Positions 213 through 33,874 are shown, counted from the first letter of the stretch. The stretch is DNA of 39,761 bases from Candidatus Kapaibacterium sp. (GCA_025363605.1 JANYDO010000434.1:1-39761); one strand, 5' to 3'. The notes: generated from the letters alone by a model not told the origin. Program-made: numbers and translations.

Positions 213-386
213 AAAAAACTTGCCCCATCATGAGCAAATCCTCCAACCTTCCTATAAAAACCTCCTCCCTTTTTAAGTAAAAAATCCTATATTGTTGCTT
301 GTCAAAAGCGTGACATTTCCCCGTTCATGGCTTCCCCTACGGTTGCTCACGATTGCATACCCCCTACTATCCTTGACATCACCACG

Positions 387-3300
387 ATGCTTACCATTAT
401 GCGCTCTTTTCTTACCTCTTTTGCCCTTCTCTTTCTTTGCAGCGCTCTTTCCCTTTGGGCGCAGCCGGGGCAGCTTGTTCCCTGTTTCAATACTGGCTTG
501 GGCTTTAACGGCAATACGAACTCATTTATTCTGCTGCCAACGGGAAAACTGCTCTGTGCGGGGAATTTTACCACGTACAACGGCTCGGCTGCAAACCGCA
601 TTTGTCGTTTGAATGCTGATGGGACACTTGACCCGACCTTTACTCCTAGTATCGGAGCAAACGCTTCCATTGACTGCATGGCTGTTCTGCCGAATGGACA
701 AATTATTATTTCCGGCTTATTTACTTCCTACAACGGCACACCGAAAGGGCGTATAGCCCGCCTTAATACTGACGGTACGTTAGATGCTACCTTTGCAGCA
801 GGTGTGGGTGGTAATGCGGGACGCATATTGAGATTTGCCGTGCAAGCCGATGGAAAAATTGTTATTGGCGGCGGATTCATGCTCACCCAATACGATGGCA
901 TTACAATCAATAGTTTTGCACGCCTGAACACTGACGGCTCGCTTGATGCCGCATTCAATAGCGGCGCAACGTCTGGAATTACTGGTATCGGCACCTACGA
1001 TCTTAAAATTCAATCGGACGGCAAGATTCTTCTTGCTGGCGATTTCACCGCCTATAAAAGTGTTGCCGTACCGAGAGGACTTATTCGCATCAATACCGAT
1101 GGCTCGCTGGACGTTACTTTCAATAACGGTGGGAGTGGTGCAAGCAACTATGTCGAGTCAATGGCGATTCAGACCGACGGCAAAATTGTCGTCGGATTAA
1201 GCGGAACATACAACGGCTTTATGCGCAATAACATTGCCCGCCTGAACGCTGACGGTTCACTGGATAATGCTTTCTATCCGCTTGGTCCCAATGGTGCGTG
1301 TGGTGTAGCGCTCCAAAGCGATGGAAAAATTCTTGTGTCCGGCTCATTCAGCACATACGATGGTATGACCCGCAATAACATTGCCCGCGCCAATAGCGAC
1401 GGAACAATCGACATCAGCTTTAATCCTACGGGCAGCAATGCCGCCATTACCTCACGCTTTGTGCTTGCTGATGGCACAGCAGTATTAGGGAGTAATGTCG
1501 GCTTTACTACCTACAACGGCGTTAGCGCTACCAACATTGCCCGTATCCAACTTTCTGCGCCTGTAACTATTTCCGGCACAAGTCCCGTCCGCAATAGCAA
1601 CACCGCACCCCTTTCCACACAGCTCACACTCAATTTTACCCAGCCAATGAACGCCGCCACCGCCTCCCAAAGCGCCTTCCGCATCTGGGGCGGGCAGTCG
1701 GGACTCCGAAGCGGCAGCTACTCCGGCGGGGGAACAAACACCATCAGCTTTGTACCGAGTAAGCCCTACAGCCCCGGCGAACTCGTCTCGGCGACGCTGA
1801 TGTGCGGGGCGCAAACAAGTACAGGTGTGCCTGTCAGCCCACAGGTAATGCAGTTTCGGGCGAAGGCGGGTGCGGGTCCGGCGACGTTTTATGAGACAAG
1901 GACGTTAGCAACGACAAGCAATAGTTTGTATGACATTACCTGTGGTTATTTTAATGCTGATGGGTATTTAGATTATGCAGTATCAAATATTACCAGCTTT
2001 GGCGGCACAGGAGGAGTAGAAATTTTTCTCGGTAGTGCAAGTGGTAACTTTACTTACTTCACAACTGTTAGCCCAGGCTCACCATTTGTAGGATTGGCTG
2101 TTGCCGATATGGATAATAATGGAACGCAGGATATAATAGCGGCTGGTGGTGGATATGGGGCAGCTTTTACAATAAACGTATTTCTTAATAATGGTGCTGC
2201 GAGTTTTACGCCCCTTGCCCCGACCAGCCCCGTACTCCAGCAAACACAAGTAGATATTGCCACAGGGGATTTTGATGGCGATGGCGATATGGATATTTTT
2301 GCCGTTTCTGATTTTGGTGGTACAGGTGGATATGCTATTTATCGCAATAATGGTATCGGTGTCTTATCAATCGTTGCAACGCAAGCATCGGGTTTCTCGC
2401 CCTCACAAAATGGTTTTTTGGGTGCCGCATCCGGTGATATAGATAACGACGGCGATATAGACCTTATCTATAATCAATTCTTGCTGAACAATATCGCCGT
2501 CGGTTATGCCCACGTTCTTATCAATGATGGGAAGGGTAATTTTTCTCCTGGGCAAACCCTGAATGTAGGAGCAACACTTTATTTCTCTCGTCTTGCTGAT
2601 ATTGATAATGATGGCTGGTTAGATTTAGTTACGGAGCAGTCAGGATCAAGTTTGCTGAAAGTCTATAAAAATATGGCAGGAACGTTTGGAGCGCCAGTGC
2701 AAACAGTCAATGTCGGTAGTACGGGACTCGGGAAGATTGTCATTTTGGACGGGAATGGTGATGGGTACTTAGATATTGCCGTAACGGTTGGTCCCACACC
2801 CGGCGTGGTTTTTGTTCCCAATAATGCCGGAATATTCGGTACAGCCGTTACAACACCTCTAGTTTTGGGTGCAGGCAGTCTCGGTGTTGGCGATACGGAC
2901 GGCGACGGAGACCTTGATTTATTGGCTACTGGTAATGCGTCCGTTACCGTCCTCACCAACGGCATCCAACCCCAAATTCTCGCCACCACTCCCATCCGCA
3001 ACTCGCACTCCTTCACGTCCACAAGCCTCACCCAATCATGGAATCTGCCCATGACCACCGCCACTGCCACGCTGCCTAGTCCCGCTTCGGTGCCGCACAG
3101 CCTCTACGTGTGGGGCGATATGACGGGCTACCGCGCACTACCAAGCGGGGGAACGGCTACCCAAAGTGGCAGCATCACTACCTTCACGCCCGTAAAGCCC
3201 TTTCTGCGCGGTGAGCGTGTCAGCGTGGCCGTTACCAATGCCCGTTCTACGGAGCTTGTGCCTGCAAAGCCTGTGGTGTATGACTTTCGGGCGAAAGCGG

Positions 3301-6300
3301 GGGTGGGACCGGGCGTGTTTTCGTCGGTTGCAGGCTCGCCTTTTGCTGTTGCTTCCCTTGCCAGTAGCCCTATTGCTATTGCCGCCGCTGATATAGATAA
3401 CGATGGAGATGTAGATATGGTAACGGCAAATGGCTCAAGTAATGTAACAATTTTTACGAATAACGGTTCGGGTCTCTACACTCCCGCAAATGTTGCTGTG
3501 CCTGCTCCAAACTATAGAGGTATCGCACTGGGCGATCTCAATAATGACGGCAATATAGATATTGCTGTTACAAATCAAGGCGGAAACGTTTACGTACTGC
3601 TTAACGGCGGAGGGGGAACTTTCGGCGCTTCCATTCCTATCGCCTCCGTGACTCAAGCCGGAAGTATTGAGCTTGCCGATTTTAACGCTGACGGATATTT
3701 AGATATTGTTGCAACTAATATCGGTGGTGGCAGCACTGTCACCGTCATCCTCAATAACGGAGGGATGAGTTTTTCGGCAGGCGTTACATACCTAACAGGT
3801 GGTAACACTTCTATTGGTGTAGCTGTTGCTGATATGGATAACGACGGAGATATTGACATCATAACCTCAAACCAGAACTCAGGCGATGTATCGGTCTTAC
3901 AGAATAACGGAAGTGGTGTGTTTGCTAATCTGACTCCTGTTCCTACGGGCGGTAATCCTAATAACATCAGCGTCGGCGATATTGATGCAGACGGAGATAT
4001 GGATATTGTTGTGGGGATAAGTTCCCTTAGTCAGGTAGTTGTTTTGAGTAATAACGGTTCGGGAATACTGAGCGTTGCTGCTTCCTATCCCACATCAGCA
4101 GGTCCGGCAGGCGTTGCCTTCGGAGACGTGGACGGCGACGGGGACTTGGATATAGCGGCGGCTCTTTCATCGAACAACGTTGCTGTGTTCATCAATAACG
4201 GCGCGGGCAGCTTTACAGCGTCCCCTTCACTTTTCCCGACGTTAGCTTCTGCCATTAATCATATTATCATGGCAGATGTAGACGGCGACGGAGATTTAGA
4301 TATTGGAACGGCAAATTATGGTGCAAATAGCATTTCCATTCTCAAAAACACTATCCAACCCGTCGTCGTTACTACTAACCCCGCCCACAATGCCCCTTCC
4401 ACAATCGCAAACAGTACTGTATCGCTCATGTACAACCAAAATATGACTCCTTCCAGTGCCAATGTACCCTCACTTAATATCTGGGGCGGTTTTTCGGGCT
4501 ACAAAACAGGCGGGACGCGCTCTGTGGCGGGCGGGACAGTCACGGCAAATGTCGGCGGCTTCCGCCCGGGCGAGCAGGTGTGGGTAACGCATCAGTCCGC
4601 CAAAAGCACGTCAAACGTTGCCGCAAAGCCGTATGTGTATGGCTTCACGGCGAAGGCGGGGGTGGGACCAGCAAATTTTGTGCAGAGTTCGATTATCTCC
4701 GTTGGTCCCCCCAATACACCATTTTCTCCTGCTTTTGGCGATATAAACAGCGATGGCGCACTGGATATGGTTGTTGGAGTGAATGGGGCAGGCGCAAATG
4801 TCTATCTCAATGACGGTAACGGTAATTTTACGCTCGCCGCCACTCCCGGCGGCGGTGATGGACACGTGTGTATTGCTGATGTCAATAACGACGGTAAGCC
4901 TGATATTATCTCGGGCACTGGTGCAAATATTGCGATTTTGACGAATATCACTCCGCCTATGGGGGCTTTGAGCTTTTCACCCGCAAGCGTAGGCAATTTC
5001 GGTAATGTTGTTAATGGCATAGCGGTAACTGATGTCAATGCTGATGGCACGTTGGATATTGTAACGGCAAATAACTCAGGAAGTAATATAAGTATTTTTT
5101 TGAATAATGGTGTGGGTACTTTTCCCGCAACTCCCACATCAACATTTACCGTAGGAGCAACTGTTCCTAATGGCATTACCGTTGGCGATATTGACAACGA
5201 TGGTGATATTGATATTGGCATTGCTGGGCAAAATAGTAATCAGATTGGTATATTTTTTAATGATGGAGCAGGTGGTTTTTCGGTGACAGGCGGTTTTGCG
5301 CTTGGTGGGCAACCGACTGCACTTTCTTTCGGCGATGTCAATAATGACGGCAATCTCGATTTAGTCGTGACAGCCATCAATGGGGTTGTCACTGTATTGC
5401 TGAATAATGGTATGGGAACATTCGCCCCCGGCTCACCGTACAATATCGGTGCAGCCAGAAATTCTACAACAATCATGGCTTTGGGCGATATGAACGGTGA
5501 TGGCAGCCTTGATATTGTTGCTGGAAACCCTTCTGTAAATACCTTTTCTGTCTTGCTAAATAATGGCTTCGGTGGATTTTCTCCTGCAAGCGGCTCACCA
5601 TTTACCGATGGCACAGGCTTTTGGGGGCTTGCCCTTGCTGATATTGACGGCGATGGCGATCTTGATGTAGCTGTTTCCAGTGATGGCGCACAACGGATTG
5701 CGTTGTATAAAAACAGCAACCAACCCATCCTCACCACCTTCTCTCCACCCCGCAACACCCAAACTCTACAACCAAACGCCGCAATAAACCTAACCTACAA
5801 CCAATCCATGACCACTGCGACGGCATCCGTACAGCCTTTCCATGTCTGGGGCGGTATGCGGGGCTTTCGCTCCGGCACGTACTCGCAGCCCACTGGCGCG
5901 GCATCGGCTCAGATTGCGCTCTCGCCGCCGCTTCTGCCGAATGAAGAAGTCTTTGTGAGCGTTACCAATGCGCAGAATAGCAACGCCATTGCGGCTCGTC
6001 CTTTCAGTTTGCAATACCGCGCCCGCTCCGGCGTTGCTCCGGCGACGTTCTTTGCGCTGCCGCCTGTTTCTATGGGCAGTACTCCGGCGCAAATGCGCAA
6101 TATGGTAACGGCAGATTTTAACGGCGATGGTAAACTTGATGCAGCCCTCTCCAATACAGGCGCAAACGGCGTTCAGCTCATGTACGGCAATGGCGCGGGC
6201 GGCTTTACCCAAGGACCACTCTTGGGTGTGGGCGGCACTGCACCGGACGAACTTGTAACAGGTGATTTTAATAACGACGGCAGACCGGATATTGCCGTGT

Positions 6301-9300
6301 CTGTCACGGGTTCAAACCTCTTGACTGTGCTTATCAATACTGGCGGTGCTTACACTTCTACCAGTTATTCCGTCGCCTCACGTGGCTTGGCAGTGGCGGA
6401 TTTTAATGGTGATGGAGCGCTGGATATTGCTGCAGTTGCGCAAGGTCTTGTTGTCAATATTTTTCTTGGCGCCAATAACGGTACGTTTAGCGTCGGCAGT
6501 CCAACGCCTGTAGTACCGTCGAACTGCAAAGGCATTACGGCGGCGGACGTGGATAACGACGGCGATATGGATATAATTGCCGTTGCCTATGGTGGAGTAC
6601 TCATCACCGACAATGCGCTCGTCTTCATCAATAACGGTCTTGGCGCGTTCACCACCGTCACGCTTCCTGCCACAGCACACCTGAAAGCAGAATATCCCTT
6701 TGCGGGAGATTTCAACAACGATGGCAAAATGGACTTTGTCGCCTTCTCTAGCGTTCCGGGCGGAGCATTTTTAGCGCTCTTCACCGGAAACGGTGCTGGC
6801 GGCTTTACGAACACCTCCTTCGGAACGGGTATATCCGGCGGATTCGGCAATGTAGGCGACCTCAATGGCGACGGACTGCTGGACGTAGCGGCAACGGATG
6901 TTTCCGGCAATGCACAAATTTGGCTCAATACGGGCGGCGCGTTTACGCAAAGTGGCGTGGGGCAAGGCACACTGGGCGCATACCCAGTTTCCGCAGATGT
7001 GGATGGCGATGGCGATCTTGACCTGATGATGACCGATTGGGCAAACGGACTCTTCAAGGTCTTGCTGAACCAGCCTGCACCTGTGCTGAACGCCAATCCG
7101 CTCACGCTCGACTTTGGCGTTGTTACCGTTGGGCTGAACGCAAGCGTTTCTACCGCAATCGCGGGAATAAATCTTGTGGGGCAAACACAAATTCTTCTTT
7201 CCACCAATGCAGCGTTTTCGATTTCCAGCAACGGCACAACCTTCGCAACGCAAGCCTCGCTCGCTCTGACCCAAACGCCGAACTTGAATATGACGTTGCA
7301 AGCTCGCTTTATCCCGCTCACAAGCGGCACCTTTACGACTACTATTACCGTAACCTCTGCCAGCGCCGCGCCGCTCACGCTCACGTTTACGGGCGTTGCC
7401 ATTCTGCCGCGCATCCCCACACCGCCTGTTATCACAGCACTTTCGACGACAGCCGCGCTTATCGGTACTCCCGTTACCGTGTCGGGTTTAAATTTTACCA
7501 ACGTCTCGCAAGCAAGTATTGGCGGTATTTCTACAACGGTGAATATTCTTTCTGCGACGCAAGCAAACGTTATTCTGCCCACAGGATTAAGCATTGGTCA
7601 AATTGTTCTCACCAACGTTGACGGTACTGCCATCAGTCGTGATTCTGTGCGGGCGCTCGTACCCTACACGCCGCCACCGATTGTTACAGCCGCACAGCCG
7701 CTCATGGGTGCTGCCGGAGAAATTATTATCGTGACAGGAGCAAACTTCGCAACGGGCGCAACGACGGTCTTTATCGGCACACTGCAAGTCTCGACAACAT
7801 TTAACTCCACGACGCACCTGACCATCATTCTTCCTGCGAATGCGCTGGGAAATCTTATCGTCCGAACGCCCAACGGCTCTACTACGTCGTCGTTTGTCCT
7901 TCGCGCGATTCCGCCACCGCTTATTCAATTCATCACTCCTACCGCAGCCAGAGCGGGTGATGCTCTGACGATTGTTGGCTCAAATTTTATCAACGTCCTT
8001 TCGGTAACTTCAGCAAATATGCGCTTGGACAGCACGTCGTGGCAAATTGACACTCTCGCACAGCGCCTCACGGTGCAAATCATAGAGAATCTCAATACTG
8101 ACGGTACGATTGGCACGATTACCCTTCTGACGCGAAGCGGCGTGGCGTTTTTCACCCAACGATATAGCGCAGGTGGCGTTCCCGAGGGCGTTCCGCAACC
8201 AAGCATTATTGCTGCTCTTCCCCTCAACTCAGCGGCAACGCTCCAAGAGGGTAATGAAATCGCTCTTCTTGCCACAAACATACCCACCGGAGCGACGTTG
8301 ACACTGACGGTGAACGGCATCACGGCGACGATTGCCAACATTCAAATCACATCCGGCACAGCGACGCTGCGCTTCCGCCTTCCTGTTGGGATTGTACCAA
8401 TAGCGCGACAAAGCACACCGTCTCTGGTGTTCAGTCTCACTATCGGCGGCATTGCTACAACGGCAACATTTCAACTTCCCGTACAAGCAGCATCCTTGCC
8501 AACGCTCACTACCTTCACGCCACCGCTCGGCGGGACGTGTTCGACTGTCAGCATCACCGGACAAAACCTTGGATTGGAGCCGCGCGGCAGAGTCACAAAC
8601 GTTCTGGTGGGCGGCGTTCCTGTGCAGGCATTCCGCGTTGTCTCGCCGACACAAATCCTGGCGACAGTGGGAACGGTCAGAAGCGGCGTGGTTACTATCG
8701 TGACCAGCATTGGCGCGATTTCCACTTCCGCCATGTTCAGCTTTGACCCCACTTTCCAATGTTACCCCCCGATGCGGCACGAAGACTCACTTGCGCTAGA
8801 TGCGTTCTACGTGGCAACGGTGGGACTGGACTGGACGACCTCGACCAACTGGACGGTTCAGGGCGTTCCGGCGGCAATGCGCTTTGGCGTGAAGGTGGAT
8901 GGCGACCGCGTGGTCGAAATTGCTATGCCGAAAAACAATGTAAGTGGCTCCATTCCTGACTTTGTGATGCAGAATCTCAGAACACTACGAGTGCTGGATT
9001 TGAACGATAACCGCATTTCAGGGGCGCTGCCGCAAACGCTTTCCTTGGCAACAAATCTCGAAATACTGCGGCTTGGCGGGAATCGCTTCACGGGCGCATT
9101 GCCGCCGAATGTGGCGGCACTCACGCGATTACGCCAACTGGACTTGGCGAACAACTTGCTTTCCGATACGCTTGGGCAATGCTGGTCGCTCACGGCGCTT
9201 GAACACTTGAATCTTCGCCAAAATAAGTTCACAGGACGAATACATACAGGCATCGCACGACTTCTCAATCTTCTTAGCCTTGACCTTAGCAATAACCAGC

Positions 9301-11744
9301 TTTCTGACACACTCCCGCCCGAAATCGGTAGCTTGCGGACGCTGCAAACGCTCCGCCTGGGAGGAAATCGCTTCACGGGGCGCATTCCGTCGTCATTGGG
9401 CAGCACAACGGCAACAGTAAAGGCTGCGCGTCTTGCCTCAACACCAGACTTGAGTACTCTTGACCTCAGTAATAATCAACTAAGCGGTACGATTCCTGCG
9501 GAACTCAGTACGCTCACCAATCTGCGTGAACTCCTGCTTGGTGGCAATGCTCTCAGCGGCGATGTGCCGAATGCTCTGGCTGGATTGCGGCTCTTGCAAA
9601 CGCTGGATGTGGAGAAGAACACACTGCAAGAAGCACCGCCCTTCATTGCCAATCCACGTCTGGCACTCCGTCTGGCGGGCAACCGCATGGACTTTGCAAC
9701 GCTTGAAGCACAAGTTTCTGTGCGCCCTACAACGGGTTCACCCCAGCAAGTCTTTAGTACAACTAACTTCAGTTACACCCGGCAAAGCCCGAACATTCGC
9801 ATTTCTGAACGCGCCGATACGGGTGTTGCGCTGGATGCCGACCTCCGACTTCGCGTAAGCACACGCGGCGCAAACAATCGGTATGCGTGGTGGAAGGACA
9901 ATGTACTTATTCAAGCAACCTCGCCGTCGGCAACGCTGCTCATTCCCGTCATTGCACCCGGCGATAGCGGCTTGTATAAGTGCGTCATTACGAACACGCT
10001 TTTGCCGGATTTGACCTTGATTACGCCCCAGCTACGAGTCACGACCTTCACCCCCACACTACCGCCGCAAGACAGCATTGTGCTTATCGCACCTGCCGCA
10101 GGCGCAGAAGATGTGTCACCCGTGCCGACTTTTGTGTGGACAAGTGTTTCGGGAGCGCGTCAGTACAGGCTTGAGGTGTCTGGTTCGCCGACCTTTACGA
10201 CGATACTTGCCAGTGCGCTTGTTTCGCAAGGCTCACAAACACTGACCTCTGGTCGCGTTGAGTTTTCAGGACAAAGTGCTATTGGTTTCCCACTTTCGTC
10301 GTCAGCGCGGATATATTGGCGAGTGCGGGCAGAAAATACACAAGGCTTGGGCAAGGCTACAAGTAGCAATTTCACCACAGCATCGGGCGATGCGCTTCTA
10401 AGCGCAGAGCGCTTGGACTTTGGCAGAGTGCCGCGTGCAGACACGGCTTCACGGCTTCTGACTGTGCGAAATATAAGCACAAATACGCTTCGCATCGAAA
10501 CCATCACGCCGAATAACGCTGTCTTCCGTGGCAGCCTACCTAATGCACTCATATTGGCGGCTGGACGAGATACGACGGTACTTGTGCGCTTTGTACCAAC
10601 GGCACTTGGCGACACACAGTCAAATCTGAATGTGCAATTCCGCAGCATCAGTTCTGGCGGCGCACAGGGAGCCTTGCAAACGCAAACGCTTCCAGACCGC
10701 TTGCGTGGGCGCGGCGGTGCGCTGAAGGTGATTGCACCGACATTCGATAGCGTTGCTGTGCGTTCCACAAAGATTGCTTCTGCACTGCTCATCAATGTCA
10801 GCGATAGCACGCTTGAAATCAACAGTATCACACCGCAACGTCGAACGGTAGGCTTTGAACTACGCTCCGGCGAAATACCGCGCGACAGGATGGCAGCAGG
10901 TGATACACTGGCGATACCCATTAGCTGCCGCCCTCAGCAAGTAGGCGTATTTATGCGCGACACCCTCCGCATTCAAACTTCACTCGAAAGGATTGATGCG
11001 CCCGTGGAAGCATTTGCCCGCGCTCGCACCCCGAACGATGTAGCCGTACAGCTCGGTATTCGCCCCCAGCAGGAGAATCTTCCGCCCGGCAGCACGGTGA
11101 CGCTGGAACTCTTTGTTATTCCGATAGGAAGCATCACCTTAGATAGCGTTTTTCGTTCGGCACTGCCTTTCATTCAAGCCGTTGTCCGTGCTGATAAGAA
11201 TGTACTTGCGCTCAGCCCGAATGAACTTTCTGCGCGAGTACAACGGCTAGACACCAATCGAATGATACGATTTATCGTACCGGCGACGGTGTGGAGCGGT
11301 CGGGCAAACGTCGTCGCGCAATTCCAGTGCATCGTCGTTGCCGGAAACACAGATAATACGTCGCTCATTATCGAAGATGTGCAGTGGGGCGCTGGAAACG
11401 TGATTTTAGATACGGTGCTGAATGGTTCGTTCACCTCCCGGATTTCGCGGGCAGGCGGAAAACGGCTTATTTCTTCCGGCACTACGACCCAACTCATGGC
11501 AGTTTTCCCGAACCCGGCAAAGGATGAAATCGAACTCACCTATACCCTGGCGGAAGGTGGCATAATAGCACTGACGCTGCTGGATGCACGAGGGAATGAG
11601 GTAATGAACGTTGCTAACGAAGTACAATCTGCCGGCAAACACACGATGCGCGTGAAAGTAGGCTGGCTGGCAAGTGGAACATATCATGTACGACTTGTGT
11701 CACCCGATGAAACGGCGACTCAACAGGTGCAAATTGTGCGCTAG
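387..11744 (+). CDS. Giant secreted multidomain protein: delta-60 repeats, 4x VCBS/FG-GAP blocks, Ig-like spacers, Hydin/ASPM-like, IPT/TIG, LRR, T9SS type A C-terminal domain
   Basis: ORF 327-11744; the ATG at 387 (or 399) gives a better signal peptide (MLTIMRSFLTSFALLFLCSALSLWAQ). Repeated ADGSLDxxF..DGKI units, 28 DxDxDGxxD motifs, C-terminus FPNPAKDEIELTY...GTYHVRLVSPDETATQQVQIVR. Confidence 0.93.
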   Translation: MLTIMRSFLTSFALLFLCSALSLWAQPGQLVPCFNTGLGFNGNTNSFILLPTGKLLCAGNFTTYNGSAANRICRLNADGTLDPTFTPSIGANASIDCMAVLPNGQIIISGLFTSYNGTPKGRIARLNTDGTLDATFAAGVGGNAGRILRFAVQADGKIVIGGGFMLTQYDGITINSFARLNTDGSLDAAFNSGATSGITGIGTYDLKIQSDGKILLAGDFTAYKSVAVPRGLIRINTDGSLDVTFNNGGSGASNYVESMAIQTDGKIVVGLSGTYNGFMRNNIARLNADGSLDNAFYPLGPNGACGVALQSDGKILVSGSFSTYDGMTRNNIARANSDGTIDISFNPTGSNAAITSRFVLADGTAVLGSNVGFTTYNGVSATNIARIQLSAPVTISGTSPVRNSNTAPLSTQLTLNFTQPMNAATASQSAFRIWGGQSGLRSGSYSGGGTNTISFVPSKPYSPGELVSATLMCGAQTSTGVPVSPQVMQFRAKAGAGPATFYETRTLATTSNSLYDITCGYFNADGYLDYAVSNITSFGGTGGVEIFLGSASGNFTYFTTVSPGSPFVGLAVADMDNNGTQDIIAAGGGYGAAFTINVFLNNGAASFTPLAPTSPVLQQTQVDIATGDFDGDGDMDIFAVSDFGGTGGYAIYRNNGIGVLSIVATQASGFSPSQNGFLGAASGDIDNDGDIDLIYNQFLLNNIAVGYAHVLINDGKGNFSPGQTLNVGATLYFSRLADIDNDGWLDLVTEQSGSSLLKVYKNMAGTFGAPVQTVNVGSTGLGKIVILDGNGDGYLDIAVTVGPTPGVVFVPNNAGIFGTAVTTPLVLGAGSLGVGDTDGDGDLDLLATGNASVTVLTNGIQPQILATTPIRNSHSFTSTSLTQSWNLPMTTATATLPSPASVPHSLYVWGDMTGYRALPSGGTATQSGSITTFTPVKPFLRGERVSVAVTNARSTELVPAKPVVYDFRAKAGVGPGVFSSVAGSPFAVASLASSPIAIAAADIDNDGDVDMVTANGSSNVTIFTNNGSGLYTPANVAVPAPNYRGIALGDLNNDGNIDIAVTNQGGNVYVLLNGGGGTFGASIPIASVTQAGSIELADFNADGYLDIVATNIGGGSTVTVILNNGGMSFSAGVTYLTGGNTSIGVAVADMDNDGDIDIITSNQNSGDVSVLQNNGSGVFANLTPVPTGGNPNNISVGDIDADGDMDIVVGISSLSQVVVLSNNGSGILSVAASYPTSAGPAGVAFGDVDGDGDLDIAAALSSNNVAVFINNGAGSFTASPSLFPTLASAINHIIMADVDGDGDLDIGTANYGANSISILKNTIQPVVVTTNPAHNAPSTIANSTVSLMYNQNMTPSSANVPSLNIWGGFSGYKTGGTRSVAGGTVTANVGGFRPGEQVWVTHQSAKSTSNVAAKPYVYGFTAKAGVGPANFVQSSIISVGPPNTPFSPAFGDINSDGALDMVVGVNGAGANVYLNDGNGNFTLAATPGGGDGHVCIADVNNDGKPDIISGTGANIAILTNITPPMGALSFSPASVGNFGNVVNGIAVTDVNADGTLDIVTANNSGSNISIFLNNGVGTFPATPTSTFTVGATVPNGITVGDIDNDGDIDIGIAGQNSNQIGIFFNDGAGGFSVTGGFALGGQPTALSFGDVNNDGNLDLVVTAINGVVTVLLNNGMGTFAPGSPYNIGAARNSTTIMALGDMNGDGSLDIVAGNPSVNTFSVLLNNGFGGFSPASGSPFTDGTGFWGLALADIDGDGDLDVAVSSDGAQRIALYKNSNQPILTTFSPPRNTQTLQPNAAINLTYNQSMTTATASVQPFHVWGGMRGFRSGTYSQPTGAASAQIALSPPLLPNEEVFVSVTNAQNSNAIAARPFSLQYRARSGVAPATFFALPPVSMGSTPAQMRNMVTADFNGDGKLDAALSNTGANGVQLMYGNGAGGFTQGPLLGVGGTAPDELVTGDFNNDGRPDIAVSVTGSNLLTVLINTGGAYTSTSYSVASRGLAVADFNGDGALDIAAVAQGLVVNIFLGANNGTFSVGSPTPVVPSNCKGITAADVDNDGDMDIIAVAYGGVLITDNALVFINNGLGAFTTVTLPATAHLKAEYPFAGDFNNDGKMDFVAFSSVPGGAFLALFTGNGAGGFTNTSFGTGISGGFGNVGDLNGDGLLDVAATDVSGNAQIWLNTGGAFTQSGVGQGTLGAYPVSADVDGDGDLDLMMTDWANGLFKVLLNQPAPVLNANPLTLDFGVVTVGLNASVSTAIAGINLVGQTQILLSTNAAFSISSNGTTFATQASLALTQTPNLNMTLQARFIPLTSGTFTTTITVTSASAAPLTLTFTGVAILPRIPTPPVITALSTTAALIGTPVTVSGLNFTNVSQASIGGISTTVNILSATQANVILPTGLSIGQIVLTNVDGTAISRDSVRALVPYTPPPIVTAAQPLMGAAGEIIIVTGANFATGATTVFIGTLQVSTTFNSTTHLTIILPANALGNLIVRTPNGSTTSSFVLRAIPPPLIQFITPTAARAGDALTIVGSNFINVLSVTSANMRLDSTSWQIDTLAQRLTVQIIENLNTDGTIGTITLLTRSGVAFFTQRYSAGGVPEGVPQPSIIAALPLNSAATLQEGNEIALLATNIPTGATLTLTVNGITATIANIQITSGTATLRFRLPVGIVPIARQSTPSLVFSLTIGGIATTATFQLPVQAASLPTLTTFTPPLGGTCSTVSITGQNLGLEPRGRVTNVLVGGVPVQAFRVVSPTQILATVGTVRSGVVTIVTSIGAISTSAMFSFDPTFQCYPPMRHEDSLALDAFYVATVGLDWTTSTNWTVQGVPAAMRFGVKVDGDRVVEIAMPKNNVSGSIPDFVMQNLRTLRVLDLNDNRISGALPQTLSLATNLEILRLGGNRFTGALPPNVAALTRLRQLDLANNLLSDTLGQCWSLTALEHLNLRQNKFTGRIHTGIARLLNLLSLDLSNNQLSDTLPPEIGSLRTLQTLRLGGNRFTGRIPSSLGSTTATVKAARLASTPDLSTLDLSNNQLSGTIPAELSTLTNLRELLLGGNALSGDVPNALAGLRLLQTLDVEKNTLQEAPPFIANPRLALRLAGNRMDFATLEAQVSVRPTTGSPQQVFSTTNFSYTRQSPNIRISERADTGVALDADLRLRVSTRGANNRYAWWKDNVLIQATSPSATLLIPVIAPGDSGLYKCVITNTLLPDLTLITPQLRVTTFTPTLPPQDSIVLIAPAAGAEDVSPVPTFVWTSVSGARQYRLEVSGSPTFTTILASALVSQGSQTLTSGRVEFSGQSAIGFPLSSSARIYWRVRAENTQGLGKATSSNFTTASGDALLSAERLDFGRVPRADTASRLLTVRNISTNTLRIETITPNNAVFRGSLPNALILAAGRDTTVLVRFVPTALGDTQSNLNVQFRSISSGGAQGALQTQTLPDRLRGRGGALKVIAPTFDSVAVRSTKIASALLINVSDSTLEINSITPQRRTVGFELRSGEIPRDRMAAGDTLAIPISCRPQQVGVFMRDTLRIQTSLERIDAPVEAFARARTPNDVAVQLGIRPQQENLPPGSTVTLELFVIPIGSITLDSVFRSALPFIQAVVRADKNVLALSPNELSARVQRLDTNRMIRFIVPATVWSGRANVVAQFQCIVVAGNTDNTSLIIEDVQWGAGNVILDTVLNGSFTSRISRAGGKRLISSGTTTQLMAVFPNPAKDEIELTYTLAEGGIIALTLLDARGNEVMNVANEVQSAGKHTMRVKVGWLASGTYHVRLVSPDETATQQVQIVR
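477..1556 (+). other. Delta-60/DUF5122-type repeat block, 7 units
   Basis: Repeating (L/I)N(T/A)DG(S/T)LDxxF...QxDGKI(V/L)xGxFxxYNG...NNIAR in translation. Confidence 0.8.
1890..2965 (+). other. VCBS/FG-GAP block 1 (7 Asp-rich motifs)
   Basis: YFNADGYLD, DMDNNGTQD, DFDGDGDMD, DIDNDGDID, DIDNDGWLD, DGNGDGYLD, DTDGDGDLD. Confidence 0.85.
3320..4355 (+). other. VCBS/FG-GAP block 2 (7 Asp-rich motifs)
   Basis: DIDNDGDVD, DLNNDGNID, DFNADGYLD, DMDNDGDID, DIDADGDMD, DVDGDGDLD, DVDGDGDLD. Confidence 0.85.
4672..5715 (+). other. VCBS/FG-GAP block 3 (7 Asp-rich motifs)
   Basis: DINSDGALD, DVNNDGKPD, DVNADGTLD, DIDNDGDID, DVNNDGNLD, DMNGDGSLD, DIDGDGDLD. Confidence 0.85.
6040..7070 (+). other. VCBS/FG-GAP block 4 (7 Asp-rich motifs)
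   Basis: DFNGDGKLD, DFNNDGRPD, DFNGDGALD, DVDNDGDMD, DFNNDGKMD, DLNGDGLLD, DVDGDGDLD. Confidence 0.85.
8800..9690 (+). other. Leucine-rich repeat domain, plant-type (SGxIP) consensus
   Basis: LRVLDLNDNRISGALPQTLSLATNLEILRLGGNRFTGALPPNVAALTRLRQLDLANN... and LDLSNNQLSGTIPAELSTLTNLRELLLGGNALSGDVP in translation. Confidence 0.85.
11505..11744 (+). other. T9SS type A sorting domain (C-terminal)
   Basis: FPNPAKDEIELTYTLAEGGIIALTLLDARGNEVMN...GTYHVRLVSPDETATQQVQIVR followed by stop. Confidence 0.85.
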
Positions 11745-11873
11745 AAAACGTCATTTACGCAGTTGGATGTATGTCCAATGGCGATATTTCCTAATTTCTT
11801 TGTAAATTTGCTCCCCCAAGAACAACTTTTTAATCACATATTTCGCTCTTGGACTGGACGTATTTTTGTCATT

Positions 11874-13718
11874 ATGCTCGTCACCACACCAGTTAAAATC
11901 TCATTTCTTGAACGTCTTGCCGAAGGAACACCGCTTGTAACGGACGGTTCTATTGCCGCCGAACTCACCGCACGTGGTTTCGCGGACTTTCCACCCTGCA
12001 TTTACAACAGCAAACAATCCGTCCTTATTGAAGACATTCACCGCGCCTTTGTGGATGCGGGTGCGGAGCTTCTTCAAAGCAATACCGAGCACGCAAACCG
12101 CCTGACGCTTGAGCGCTACGGCTTTGCCGATAAAGTTTATGAGCTGAATCGCACAGGGGTGTGGATAGCCCGCTATACAGCGCTTCATAAGGCGTATGTG
12201 GCTGGAGTAGTGGGTCCCATTGGAAAATTCCTCACGCCACTCGGAGCGCTCAACCGCGAAGATGTCCGTGCGGCATTTGTGGAGCAGATTACAGCACTGG
12301 TGGACGGTGGGGCGGACGTGCTGATGCTCAAATCGTTTATTGATGTGGAAGAACTGGAAATTGCCATAGATGCGGCAAAATTCGTTGCCCCTGATATGCC
12401 CATCATCGCCCAAAAAACATTTCCTGAAGATGGGGCTGTTTTGGCAACCTCATATCCCTCTGACATCGCACAGAATCTCGTAAAGAAAGGTGTTGCGGTG
12501 ATTGGAACGAATGGCACAGTTGGTCCACAGCGAATGATGGATATTTTGAAGAATTTTCACGCCGAAGGTACGCCGCTTTGCTCGCAGCCAGATGTTGGCA
12601 TACCGACACTGGTGGACGGCAAGGCAATTTACAACGCCGAACCGCGCTATGTAGCCCAATCCATCAAACGTTTGGTGGAAGCAGGAGCGCAAATTGTAGG
12701 CTGCGAAGGCGGCGGCACGGTGGAACATACCCGCGCCATCGCTGAGGCGGTACAAGGTGCAGTAGTGGGGTCGCGCAAACCGGAAGTAAAAGTAACGCAT
12801 CATAAAGAGCCTGAGGTAGCAAATGGCGCAACAACGAGCTTTTTCGACAATCTGGGTAAAAAACTTCTGACAACGGTGGAACTTGACGTGCCGCGTGGCT
12901 TGGATTTATCCAGTATTCTGGAAGGCGCGGAGTATTTGAAAAAGAATGGACTGGACGCAGTAAATATCTCGGACGGGGCGCGGGCACGCTTACGAATGAG
13001 TTCGATTGCGATTTCGCAGATTGTCCAGACACAAGTGGGAATCGAATGTTTGACACATCTCGCCTGCCGCGACCGCAATATGATTGGCTTGCAATCGGAG
13101 TTATTGGGCGCACACGCGATGGGCGTAAAAAACATCCTCGCCGTTACGGGCGACCCCACGCAAATTGGCGATTTTCCGTATGCCACATCGGTCTATGATG
13201 TAGATTCTATCGGACTGATACGTGCTTTGGGACAAATGAACGATGGGCGCGACCTCATGGGTAATCCGATTGGCGGGAAAACGCAATTTTGCATCGCCTG
13301 TGCTTGCAATCCCGCAGCATACGACCTTGACCGCGAAATTCGCCGCTTAGAAGAAAAAGCTGCGCAGGGCGCACACGTAGCCTTCTCGCAGCCCGTCTTC
13401 GACGAAGAAACATTGAACCGATTCATGGAACGGGCAAAGCACATCAAGATTCACATCTTGCTGGGTGTGATACCGCTGCGGTCGGCGCGTCACGCTGATT
13501 TCTTGCACCACGAAGTGCCGGGGATGTACATTCCTGACTGGGTACGCGCCCGTATTCACGAAGCAAATGCCTCTGGCGGACTGGAAGCCGCTACACGTGA
13601 AGGAATATCACTCACCGTAGATTTTCTGCGTAAAGCAAAGTCAATGATTCAAGGGATTTATCTGATGCCGCCGTTTAAGAAGTATTCGATGGCTGTGGAG
13701 ATTTTGCAGCAGGTGTAG
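11874..13718 (+). CDS. Bifunctional homocysteine S-methyltransferase / 5,10-methylenetetrahydrofolate reductase
   Basis: N-terminal half is HMT-like (LVTDGSIAAELTARGF, EGGGTVEHTRAIAEAV); C-terminal half is MetF-like (VELDVPRGLDLSSILEGAEYLKKNGLDAVNISD, AVTGDPTQIGDFP, QPVFDEETLNRFMERAK). The ORF opens at 11763; ATG at 11874 is the likelier start. Confidence 0.93.
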   Translation: MLVTTPVKISFLERLAEGTPLVTDGSIAAELTARGFADFPPCIYNSKQSVLIEDIHRAFVDAGAELLQSNTEHANRLTLERYGFADKVYELNRTGVWIARYTALHKAYVAGVVGPIGKFLTPLGALNREDVRAAFVEQITALVDGGADVLMLKSFIDVEELEIAIDAAKFVAPDMPIIAQKTFPEDGAVLATSYPSDIAQNLVKKGVAVIGTNGTVGPQRMMDILKNFHAEGTPLCSQPDVGIPTLVDGKAIYNAEPRYVAQSIKRLVEAGAQIVGCEGGGTVEHTRAIAEAVQGAVVGSRKPEVKVTHHKEPEVANGATTSFFDNLGKKLLTTVELDVPRGLDLSSILEGAEYLKKNGLDAVNISDGARARLRMSSIAISQIVQTQVGIECLTHLACRDRNMIGLQSELLGAHAMGVKNILAVTGDPTQIGDFPYATSVYDVDSIGLIRALGQMNDGRDLMGNPIGGKTQFCIACACNPAAYDLDREIRRLEEKAAQGAHVAFSQPVFDEETLNRFMERAKHIKIHILLGVIPLRSARHADFLHHEVPGMYIPDWVRARIHEANASGGLEAATREGISLTVDFLRKAKSMIQGIYLMPPFKKYSMAVEILQQV

Positions 13719-30025: not shown

Positions 30026-33000
30026 TTACTTTTTCGTTATCGGTACAATCTCGAAATCCTTACCCGATAACTGCCCGAATGGCGTTTGTTCCTTGCCTTT
30101 GAGCAGTTGGCGCGTTAGCTCCGGCACTTGCTCCTCGACGTAGTTTTTGAGTGCATTGACAGTGACTTTACCTTTATCGTTCTTGACTTCGCCGCCGAGT
30201 GCTTTCAAAAGCGTGTAGGAAAAGACACCGTGCTGGATGGATGTCACCTGATTGGCGGCTTGGTCGGACGATGCTGATGCAATGACCGCACTACCGGTCT
30301 TCCGCGCCACACCTTTGACGGATTTGGACTGCATGAAGTCATCAAGAGCTGCACCGGACTGGCAAGCATCGAAGAGTACCAGTTGACGCGCTGCCGGAAC
30401 GTTTGTCAGCAGGACGCTGAGTTCCTTTGCCGATAAGCCGCGCGATTCAAGCTCTTGCTCATTCTTCACGTCCTGCATCACAAGATAGAACGACGTTTGT
30501 TCGTCAGCCGTCACCACTTTGCCGTGTCCGGCGTAGAAGAATACGAACACGTCCTGGCGTTGTGCGGTCTCGGTGATTTTTTTGAAGATTTCTTGCACCT
30601 TCTCTTTTTTTGCTTCCGCGTCGTAGAGTTCGTACTTAAACACTTTGTCGTAGCCGCCTTGCGCAGCATTGCCGATAATAGTTTTCAGAACGTCCTGTGC
30701 GTCGGGGCGAGCGTAGGGCAAATTATACTCTTTGTTGAGATAATCGTTTACACCGATAGCGAAAACGTGTAGATTCGAGGTCTGAACGGGAATATTGCAA
30801 AAGACGGTAGCTTCTGCCGCATTGGATTCAGTTTTATCGGTGTTGATAGCAACGACTTTCAGGTCATTTTTGCCCGGTAAAAGCTGAATCGTATAGTCAC
30901 GCAAGATAGTAAAACCCTGCGCCGAAGGGAGATTCTTGAATTCTTCGGGGAAAAGCAACTTGCCATTTTGGAAAATGCGAATTTCAGCAATCTGGGATCC
31001 TCTGTCTTTTACGCCAACGGTAAGATTCACACGGGGCGAAGCAAGCGTATCGGCGGGACGTGGAGCAAGAATCTCGACCAACGGCGGCAATTTGAAATCG
31101 CGCGTAATGTCGGGAGCCATCTGCACACCGGCAACAGGATTAACGACTTCCGCCGATGCAGCCGCAACGGCAGCTTCTTGTTGTTTTTTCACTTCAGCTT
31201 GCCGGAGTGCAAGCGTTTCTGCCTCTTGCTTCGCTTTTGCTTCAGCCGCAAGACGCACTTTTGCTTCGGCTTCCTGTTTTGCTTTCAAATCCGCCTGTTG
31301 CTTGGCAAGAGCATCTGCATCTTGTTTTGCCTTGGCTTCAGCCGCAATGCGGACTTTCGCGTCTGCTTCTTGCTTCGCTTTCAAATCTACTTGCTGCTTG
31401 GCAAGAGCATCTTGTGCTGCTTTTTCTTTCGCAGCCGCTTGTTGTTTAGTGAGTTCGTCTGCTTCACGTTTTGCTTTTGCTTCAGCTTCCGTGCGGGCTT
31501 TAGCTTCGGCTATCTGTTTTACTTTCAGGTCTGCTTGTTGCTTGGCAAGAGCATCTGCCTCTTGTTTTGCTTTGGCTTCAGCGACAATGCTGGCTTTCGT
31601 TTCGTTTTCTTGTTGCGTTTTGAGCGCCAGTTGCTGTTTGGCAAGTTCCGCCGATTCACGTTTGGCTTCGGCTTCCGCATCGCGTTTTGCCTTTGCGGTA
31701 GCTTCTTTCGCAGCTTTATCTTGTTGGGCTTTCAAAGCCACTGCTGCGGGTGAAGCAGGAAAAATACGCGACAGCAGTTTCGGCGAGTAAAAGCGCTCAA
31801 AGAACGCATCCAACTGCACCGGCTGACCATCCACGACCCAGTGCAAGAGCTTCGTGCCGTCTTCCGAACCGTCGAACTGCCCGTCCGGCGTTACCACGAC
31901 CCAGTCGCCTCTGTCTAAACCGACCAACGTAGCATTTTCCTTGCCTTCGATAGCATCCCAGACGATGACTTTCGCGTCCGCACTAGCGCTGGCAAGTGTG
32001 CGGTTGTTGGGATGGAAAGACGTTGCCAGCACCCAGTTTGCATGACCTTTGAGCGTCTTAATTTCTTTGCCGCTCGCCACATCCCAGACTTTTACGTCGT
32101 CATCCGTAGCGCCGCTTGCCGCGTATTTGCCGTCGTTGCTCATCGAAACAGCCATCACCTCGCCTTTATGCCCTGCGAAGGTCTTGACAGCTTGCCCGCT
32201 CGCCACATCCCAGACTTTGACAGTGCGGTCGGCGCTACCCGAAACAAGCTGTTTCCCGTTCGCAGAAAACGCAACGCTGTTAATAAGTTCAGTGTGTCCG
32301 GCGAGCACTTTCAGTTCTTTGCCGCTCGCCACGTCCCAGAGACGAATCGTGCGGTCGGACGATGCCGTCGCAAGCGTCTTCCCATCAGGGCTAAACTGCA
32401 CGGAATACACACTTTTTCTATGCCCACGCAGCTTTTTGTCGAGCTTGCCTGTTTGAGGATTCCAAAGACTGACCACTGAATCAATCGCGCCACTAGCAAT
32501 CATGCTGCCGTCAGGGGAAACAGCAACGGCTTGAATTGGACTATCATCGGTGGTAATCGTTTTCGTCATTTTACCCGTCTCGACGTTCCAAATGGCAATG
32601 CTCTTGTTGTCGAGCGATGTTCCGCCCGCCACAAGCGTCTTACCATCGGCAGTGTAGGAAAGGCTTGCCACCTGAATAAGCGGTGCTTTCAGGTCGGCAG
32701 GTTCTGTACCTTTTTCCAAATCCCAGAGGCGGATATTGTTCCCATCTTTGTCGGAATGCGCCGTAGCGAGGTGATTCCCCGTTTTGTCGAAGGCAACCGC
32801 CTTGATGACTTTTCGGTAGCCGTTGAACTCGCTTGCATCGCGCCCTGTCGCTACATCGTAGGTACGCATAGCGCGGTCAGCGCCGCCGGTGGTAAGTTTC
32901 GTACCGTCGGGCGAAAAGGCAAAGCACAGCACACGCGGCGAATTGCCGATAAAGGTGCGAAGTTTTTTGCCATTGAAGACGTTCCAAAGAGCCACCGTGC

Positions 33001-33874
33001 GGCGAATATCCATATCGTCATCTTCCTGCGAGGATTTGTCAACGCTGGCGATGATACGACCATTCGGACTAATAGCAGCTTGCTTTGCCACACCGACCAC
33101 TTCGCGCAAAAAGGTTTTTTTTGCGGCATCGTATATTTTAACGGCTTGATTGTCGCATTGTGCAATAAGTAAGGAGCCATCGGCGCTGTATGCCAGATTG
33201 GTAATCCCTGCTCCGGCATCAAGCGTGACAACGCTATTTTGCTGAATGTTCAGTAAGCGAATCGTATTGTCGTCTCCACCCACAGCAAGCGTTTGCCCGT
33301 CGGGGCTGAAGGCAAGCGTGTTTTGAGCTTTTGTCAAGCCCGTCAGAGGAATGGGAATTTCTTTCCCGATGCGAATATCCCAGAGTTTGACGGTCTTGTC
33401 AATGCTGCAACTCGCAATGATATTATTTGTGGGGCTGAATGCCACCGCCGACGCATAAAATGAGTGTCCGGGCAACGTACGAACTTCCGTACCCTTGCGA
33501 ACATCCCAAATGCGAATGGTATTGTCCTTCGCAGCCGTAACGAGCATATCGCCAGCTGCGTTGAAATCAAGCGCCGTAATATAGCCCCTGTGCGCCACAA
33601 AGGTTCGTACAACCTTGCCTGTGGTTACATCCCAAAGTTTAACCGTATTATCCTCACTACCACTGGCGATAAAATTGCCATTGGGACTGTATTTCACAAC
33701 AACAACATCTCCAAAGTGTCCCGTTTGGACGATAAGTTCCGGTTTGGTGGGAGTTTGTGCCGTAGCTGCGACTTGTGCAAAAGCACGTGGGGGCGGATAG
33801 CCTCCGCCAAGCGCTACAAGAAACGCTAAGGCGAGCAACAGCCTCGGTGGCACAAAAGAAGTTCGTCGGTTCAT
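30026..33874 (-). CDS. Exported WD40 repeat / coiled-coil / caspase-like (peptidase C14) protein
   Basis: Signal-peptide-like N-terminus MNRRTSFVPPRLLLALAFLVALGGGYPPPRAFAQ; many WD40 repeats (LWDVASGKELKVLAGHTELINSVAFSANGKQLVSGSADRTVKVWD); Ala/Lys/Gln-rich coil; caspase-like YAGHGK (His codon 30524-30526) and DACQSG (Cys codon 30362-30364). Confidence 0.94.
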   Translation of the reverse strand: MNRRTSFVPPRLLLALAFLVALGGGYPPPRAFAQVAATAQTPTKPELIVQTGHFGDVVVVKYSPNGNFIASGSEDNTVKLWDVTTGKVVRTFVAHRGYITALDFNAAGDMLVTAAKDNTIRIWDVRKGTEVRTLPGHSFYASAVAFSPTNNIIASCSIDKTVKLWDIRIGKEIPIPLTGLTKAQNTLAFSPDGQTLAVGGDDNTIRLLNIQQNSVVTLDAGAGITNLAYSADGSLLIAQCDNQAVKIYDAAKKTFLREVVGVAKQAAISPNGRIIASVDKSSQEDDDMDIRRTVALWNVFNGKKLRTFIGNSPRVLCFAFSPDGTKLTTGGADRAMRTYDVATGRDASEFNGYRKVIKAVAFDKTGNHLATAHSDKDGNNIRLWDLEKGTEPADLKAPLIQVASLSYTADGKTLVAGGTSLDNKSIAIWNVETGKMTKTITTDDSPIQAVAVSPDGSMIASGAIDSVVSLWNPQTGKLDKKLRGHRKSVYSVQFSPDGKTLATASSDRTIRLWDVASGKELKVLAGHTELINSVAFSANGKQLVSGSADRTVKVWDVASGQAVKTFAGHKGEVMAVSMSNDGKYAASGATDDDVKVWDVASGKEIKTLKGHANWVLATSFHPNNRTLASASADAKVIVWDAIEGKENATLVGLDRGDWVVVTPDGQFDGSEDGTKLLHWVVDGQPVQLDAFFERFYSPKLLSRIFPASPAAVALKAQQDKAAKEATAKAKRDAEAEAKRESAELAKQQLALKTQQENETKASIVAEAKAKQEADALAKQQADLKVKQIAEAKARTEAEAKAKREADELTKQQAAAKEKAAQDALAKQQVDLKAKQEADAKVRIAAEAKAKQDADALAKQQADLKAKQEAEAKVRLAAEAKAKQEAETLALRQAEVKKQQEAAVAAASAEVVNPVAGVQMAPDITRDFKLPPLVEILAPRPADTLASPRVNLTVGVKDRGSQIAEIRIFQNGKLLFPEEFKNLPSAQGFTILRDYTIQLLPGKNDLKVVAINTDKTESNAAEATVFCNIPVQTSNLHVFAIGVNDYLNKEYNLPYARPDAQDVLKTIIGNAAQGGYDKVFKYELYDAEAKKEKVQEIFKKITETAQRQDVFVFFYAGHGKVVTADEQTSFYLVMQDVKNEQELESRGLSAKELSVLLTNVPAARQLVLFDACQSGAALDDFMQSKSVKGVARKTGSAVIASASSDQAANQVTSIQHGVFSYTLLKALGGEVKNDKGKVTVNALKNYVEEQVPELTRQLLKGKEQTPFGQLSGKDFEIVPITKK

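Follow-up and report, generated by a model that had tools for sequence, protein, structure and literature searches.

Whole beta-propellers of a large T9SS surface protein in Candidatus Kapaibacterium sp. are probably interchangeable cassettes, swapped by homologous recombination through the Ig-like linkers of the protein. The gene lies in the window, by which we mean the whole 39,761-nucleotide stretch of DNA analysed (GCA_025363605.1 JANYDO010000434.1:1-39761). Sequence comparison established both the architecture of the protein, five propeller blocks followed by a stalk, and a mosaic of whole propellers among its orthologs.

Architecture of the multi-propeller protein

A single T9SS protein of 3805 residues is encoded in the open frame 327-11744 (+), with a probable start at M25 (position 399, MRSFLTSF...); an identical MRSFLTSF start was found in the closest ortholog, from a congeneric genome (G006). 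By Pfam and NCBIfam the domain order is delta-60/DUF5122, Big_5, FG-GAP_3, TIG, LRR, Ig, HYDIN/ASH and T9SS sorting domain. The two profiles that an earlier note on this DNA had named as a check were both matched by Pfam on the 3805-aa frame, FG-GAP_3 (PF13517) above cut-off in 21 stretches (E 4e-150) and DUF5122 with 214.9 bits (E 1e-64), and NCBIfam matched delta-60 repeats (TIGR02608, 155.7 bits) and Por_Secre_tail above cut-off on frame 327-11744. The repeat counts are far beyond chance. The features are listed below, with linker boundaries accurate to about ten residues.

399-464, + strand: signal peptide (hydrophobic N-terminus; start shared with the G006 ortholog)
465-1541, + strand: delta-60 (DUF5122) seven-unit propeller block (Pfam/NCBIfam matches, unit parse, moderate-confidence model)
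1548-1847, + strand: linker L1, Big_5 Ig-like domain (Pfam Big_5 32.8 bits, above cut-off)
1848-2972, + strand: VCBS propeller P1, 7 units, first Ca loop degenerate (motif scan, FG-GAP_3 matches)
2973-3299, + strand: linker L2, Big_5-like (alignment homology to L1/L3/L4; no Pfam match by itself)
3300-4337, + strand: VCBS propeller P2, 7 units (7 strict motifs)
4338-4646, + strand: linker L3, Big_5-like (Pfam 19.3 bits, below cut-off; DNA profile)
4647-5705, + strand: VCBS propeller P3, 7 units (7 strict motifs)
5706-6020, + strand: linker L4, Big_5-like (Pfam 18.8 bits, below cut-off)
6021-7052, + strand: VCBS propeller P4, 7 units (7 strict motifs; AlphaFold model m1090f73d2d88; two allele classes)
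7059-8921, + strand: stalk part 1, ASH-like domain (weak) then IPT/TIG domains (TIG 59.7 bits, 3 stretches)
8934-9656, + strand: leucine-rich repeats (LRR_8, three stretches)
9750-10661, + strand: Ig-like, Rha78A-type Ig and HYDIN/ASH (choice-of-anchor D-like) domains (Pfam)
11502-11744, + strand: T9SS type A C-terminal sorting domain and stop (Por_Secre_tail, PF18962, 28.0 bits, cut-off 27; TIGR04183, 26.6 bits, cut-off 23)

The earlier note had proposed five consecutive blocks of seven units in one secreted protein, at 477-7070. The five blocks of seven were confirmed by the Pfam and NCBIfam matches, the motif scan and the unit parse. Position 477 falls just inside the mature protein, but the gene extends to 11744, and the blocks, although in series, do not adjoin directly, four Big_5-like domains of ~100 aa lying between them. 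The long stalk after the propellers and the T9SS secretion that the note had also predicted agree with the C-terminal sorting domain and with an SprA_N gene of the T9SS translocon that the genome carries. Export of T9SS type A substrates leaves the C-terminus at the cell, and the propellers of this protein would then be outermost. A gene directly upstream of an ortholog (L009:176-8146) has the LRR/Ig/ASH/T9SS stalk in common with it (36% over ~1470 aa) and contains no VCBS motifs, that is, it combines the same stalk with different heads.

Scanning the four VCBS blocks for the strict Ca-loop pattern D-x-[DN]-x-[DN]-G-x-x-D gave 27 motifs (6+7+7+7), spaced 45-56 residues inside blocks and 155-166 from block to block, with P2 and P3 the most regular. 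The earlier note had counted exactly seven per block, 28 in total; the 28th, in P1 unit 1 at residue 541 (YFNADGYLD), is degenerate, its first Asp lost. In the genus, none of 115 propeller clusters (33 frames, eight congeneric genomes) had more than seven motifs and 64 had seven, clusters with fewer reflecting degenerate motifs, gap-rule splits or contig ends. Clusters with more than seven occur outside the genus, where the scan leaves adjacent propellers unseparated by linkers and the count is not comparable. The delta-60 block parses into seven units, six full ones, with a first core at ~72, and a degenerate last one near residue 382.

A seven-bladed ring of the kind that the earlier note had expected is well resolved in the model of P4. 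AlphaFold on L4-P4 (27-row alignment) gave a mean pLDDT of 78 (block means within the propeller 72-96) and a seven-bladed ring of 27 strands, which a further short N-terminal strand, following the linker, could close; Foldseek matched this model to complete propellers (KICSTOR subunit, LGI1; target TM up to 0.76). For delta-60 + L1 + P1 the model was of moderate confidence (mean pLDDT 68, pTM 0.56), with low to moderate pLDDT in the delta-60 block (under 50 in its last unit), and contained the expected repeated strand pattern, so that ring closure of the delta-60 block and P1 is predicted as likely only. By analogy with related propellers, the VCBS propellers may bind Ca and serve in adhesion or as lectins.

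All four linkers align to one another. L4 is 76-91% identical in amino acids among orthologs, and the L3 core (about residues 1380-1410) retains 85-98% DNA identity in all five ortholog pairs profiled.

A mosaic of whole propellers among orthologs

Orthologs with the same layout were found in four congeneric genomes (G006, G003, G001 and G007), the one in G003 apparently being the full-length ortholog of an Ignavibacteria metagenome genome (L009); all compared genomes appear to be metagenome assemblies. Each ortholog has four blocks of six or seven motifs, and across five species the number of VCBS modules is constant at four while the identity of the propellers changes. With one housekeeping gene, PBP2, as species yardstick, the order is (window,G006), (G003,G001), G007, both clades having support of 100, and the stalk agrees. 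Linkers, delta-60 block and stalk are conserved between orthologs, and the propellers are either clearly related or resemble unrelated ones; along the five orthologs, sliding identity falls at most propellers and recovers at each linker. Propellers from different positions, taken as background, share a median of 36.7% identity (maximum 48.7%).

Three of the four propellers are unrelated in the sister pair G003-G001 despite near-identical PBP2. Identities (amino acid/4-fold sites) are 99/81% for PBP2, 93/82% for the stalk and 94/90% for P4, and 45/29%, 36/17% and 39/28% for P1, P2 and P3. The window and G006 share 95% of PBP2 residues, 88% of delta-60 and 81% of the stalk, with P1-P4 at 40-49%. 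A P1 class common to G006, G003 and G007 is 84-89% identical in genomes whose stalks share 62-66% and delta-60 blocks 58-76%; at 4-fold sites, P1 of G006 and G007 is 67% identical vs 42% for PBP2. The window P1 shares 33-41% with P1 of the orthologs. P4 likewise forms clear classes, window/G003/G001 vs G006/G007, and because alleles of different classes still share ~50% identity, the sequences indicate that P4 has its own older lineage. For P2, all ten ortholog pairs lie within the different-position background.

The AU test rejected (window,G006) for P4 (p=3e-50) and, for P1, both (window,G006) (p=1e-4) and (G003,G001) (p=0.004). The tests of P2 and P3 alone were weak (p 0.03-0.06), G003 and G001 still pairing weakly for P3. 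A second ortholog pair, C118 of G006 and C55 of G003, has identities of 93, 38, 45 and 94% for propellers 1-4. The second half of the delta-60 block (1047-1541) is itself mosaic, with 75-85% identity among window, G006 and G003 and 43-49% to G001 and G007, and its tree rejects the G003+G001 clade (p=0.007).

The origin of such a pattern might be sought in very fast diversification in place, with strong positive selection acting on point mutations and blade turnover and with no exchange of cassettes. The exposed position of the propellers, their repetitiveness and their tendency to blade amplification speak for it, and the weak P2 and P3 trees would be compatible with it. However, near-identical and unrelated propellers alternate in one gene, propeller classes are common to non-sister species contrary to the species tree, silent sites fall too in the replaced propellers (17-29% in G003-G001 vs 81% in PBP2), and the AU tests of P1 and P4 weigh against it; we consider diversification in place improbable.

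Repeated linkers are also places where assemblers can misjoin strains, and the mosaic could in principle consist of propellers of different strains or paralogs joined there. One contig of the window's own genome, C416, has the look of a chimera, and unknown residues form a run close to the 3' end of the G001 ortholog. Misjoining nevertheless appears unlikely as the source of the mosaic: four of the five orthologs are full-length open frames of ~3800 residues and in the fifth every propeller is intact, contigs of 76-132 kb enclose three of them, and separate assemblies share the P1 and P4 classes. An ordinary scaffold or adhesin with several propellers, the reading of the earlier note, would involve no exchange; it fits the architecture described for the VCBS core group, which combines a signal peptide with several propellers and with Ig-like domains (PMC8023676), but leaves the mosaic unexplained, and is very improbable as a full account.

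Propellers in other genes and positions

Further propeller genes are carried by each of the eight genomes. The best relatives of the window P1 are P2 of another gene (51% to C446 of its own genome, 52% to C81 of G006) and P3 of the G001 ortholog (45%). Since P1 is thus nearest to propellers of another gene and another position, exchange appears from these comparisons to cross positions and genes, by events that are old. In G001, P1-L2-P2 of C180 corresponds to P2-L3-P3 of C272 in the same genome as one 2.67-kb block of 88.5% identity, shifted by one position.

C81 of G006 and C446 of the window's genome are orthologs one whole propeller module apart (four vs three), P1, P2 and P4 of the former being 94, 95 and 81% identical to P1, P2 and P3 of the latter. 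G006 C43 is a single frame of 7595 residues that encodes ten VCBS propellers and as many Ig linkers. Freshly amplified blades, with 76-88% DNA identity, are seen in G006 C118 P3 and in C43 P1 and P2 (76-86% in the C43 pair).

No near-identical donor copy of any window propeller was found. The window's own genome, which is possibly incomplete, yielded no close copy of P1 or P2, and no DNA repeats were found between the window gene and other family contigs of that genome. Silent-cassette antigenic variation with same-genome donors was rejected, there being no close silent copies of window P1 or P2. Exchange among the modules of the window gene was rejected as well: the gene has no DNA repeat of at least 90 bp at 75% identity or more, and its linkers share too little DNA identity with each other for exchange inside the gene. 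Contig C416 (L006, 2.5 kb) has a 106-bp inverted repeat of 99% identity (1-106 and 1206-1311) and two inverted linkers that are 85% identical; as an invertible shuffler it was set aside, being a probable assembly chimera of propeller genes.

Linkers as candidate recombination joints

Among same-genome repeats of at least 250 bp placed in linker or propeller, 54 of 57 were linker-linker, linkers making up 25% of residues. At 4-fold sites the linkers of the sister pair G003-G001 are more diverged than the stalk (61% vs 82% identity, p=2e-8), whereas the opposite holds in four wider pairs, where the stalk has diverged more than the linkers (p 0.01 to 9e-6). No significant difference was seen in the other five of the ten pairs, and the Fisher tests are mutually non-independent across pairs. 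Silent sites of the linkers do not track species distance. More divergence than the stalk in the sister pair and less in wider pairs is what is expected if linkers travel between species, and it fits linkers that are carried along and used as recombination arms.

Exchange of whole propellers could proceed as follows. A chain of Big_5-like Ig domains would display the delta-60 block and four VCBS propellers, and the TIG/LRR/Ig stalk would keep them at a distance from the cell. Incoming DNA would recombine in two neighbouring linkers, the conserved DNA of these flanking linkers serving as the arms, so that one propeller is replaced with frame and fold undisturbed and with blade number and stalk left intact. 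The donors would be other strains or species and sometimes other genes of the family. By analogy, the likely effect would be an altered glycan or protein specificity at the exposed end; alternatively, a swap might let the cell evade a phage or grazer that targets the tip. A change of ligand seems likely because related propellers bind glycans and exchange of lectin domains retargets the umbrella particle. A broader reading, which we hold tentatively as a real possibility and not as the expectation, is that of a genus-wide system in which blade amplification creates complete propellers and Ig linkers, kept alike as recombination arms, allow these propellers to move between genes and species, reassorting binding specificities.

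Genomic neighbourhood

Directly downstream of the gene, 11763-13718 (+) encodes a fused homocysteine S-methyltransferase and methylenetetrahydrofolate reductase (MTHFR). Because this fusion and the proline dehydrogenase-like gene downstream in the window were absent from the ortholog flanks examined, synteny was uninformative. A protein of 1282 aa encoded at 30026-33874 (-) contains numerous WD40 repeats and a long coiled coil, and its C-terminal domain is caspase-like (PADLOC caspase E 1e-10); it is a second propeller protein, unrelated to the first, and may act as a protease in signalling or cell death. The 3805-residue protein had no PADLOC match, and a defence-system reading of it was rejected.

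Relation to known systems and implications

Secreted prokaryotic proteins of the VCBS superfamily (PF13517) with several VCBS propellers, Ig-like domains and Asp-rich cation loops have been described (Pereira and Lupas 2021; PMC8023676), and the window protein is like them in propellers, Ig-like domains and loops. The word 'recombination' is absent from that paper, and the present family differs by the probable exchange of whole propellers between orthologs. Propeller birth from single blades and recent amplification are also documented (PMC9218822, PMC6805158), and near-identical blades of this kind occur here in G006 C118 P3 and C43 P1 and P2. Those studies concern how a propeller arises; here finished propellers appear to change place as units.

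By both profile and fold, the best match of solved structure was UmbA4 (9oee_A), a lectin propeller that binds cell-wall glycan and belongs to the umbrella particle, which is retargeted by exchanging lectin domains (PMC13274773). UmbA4 has six blades, in contrast to the seven of the window VCBS propellers, and belongs to a soluble Streptomyces toxin particle in which the swap was engineered. The VCBS blades also gave profile matches to the propellers of integrin alpha, CRTAC1 and PVL lectin, which have one propeller per chain, are mostly eukaryotic and are only remotely similar. Mycoplasma synoviae VlhA is a surface adhesin varied by recombination from promoterless pseudogenes into one expressed site (PMC4206340). 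The present protein would resemble it as a surface protein varied by recombination; in contrast to VlhA, no silent store was found here, and the units would be folded propellers that pass from species to species.

Both VCBS proteins that combine several propellers with Ig-like domains and the birth of propellers from blades were thus known; new would be the exchange of whole propellers between orthologs, of which no published report was found in the open-access literature. Few binding scaffolds are as versatile as propellers, and the origin of their new specificities is usually studied blade by blade. If whole-propeller exchange is true, it would add a second level of propeller evolution, in which closed propellers are replaced between sister species with Ig linkers as the joints. 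Protein engineering would also gain module boundaries set by nature, and surface variation in uncultured bacteria would have a case open to testing.
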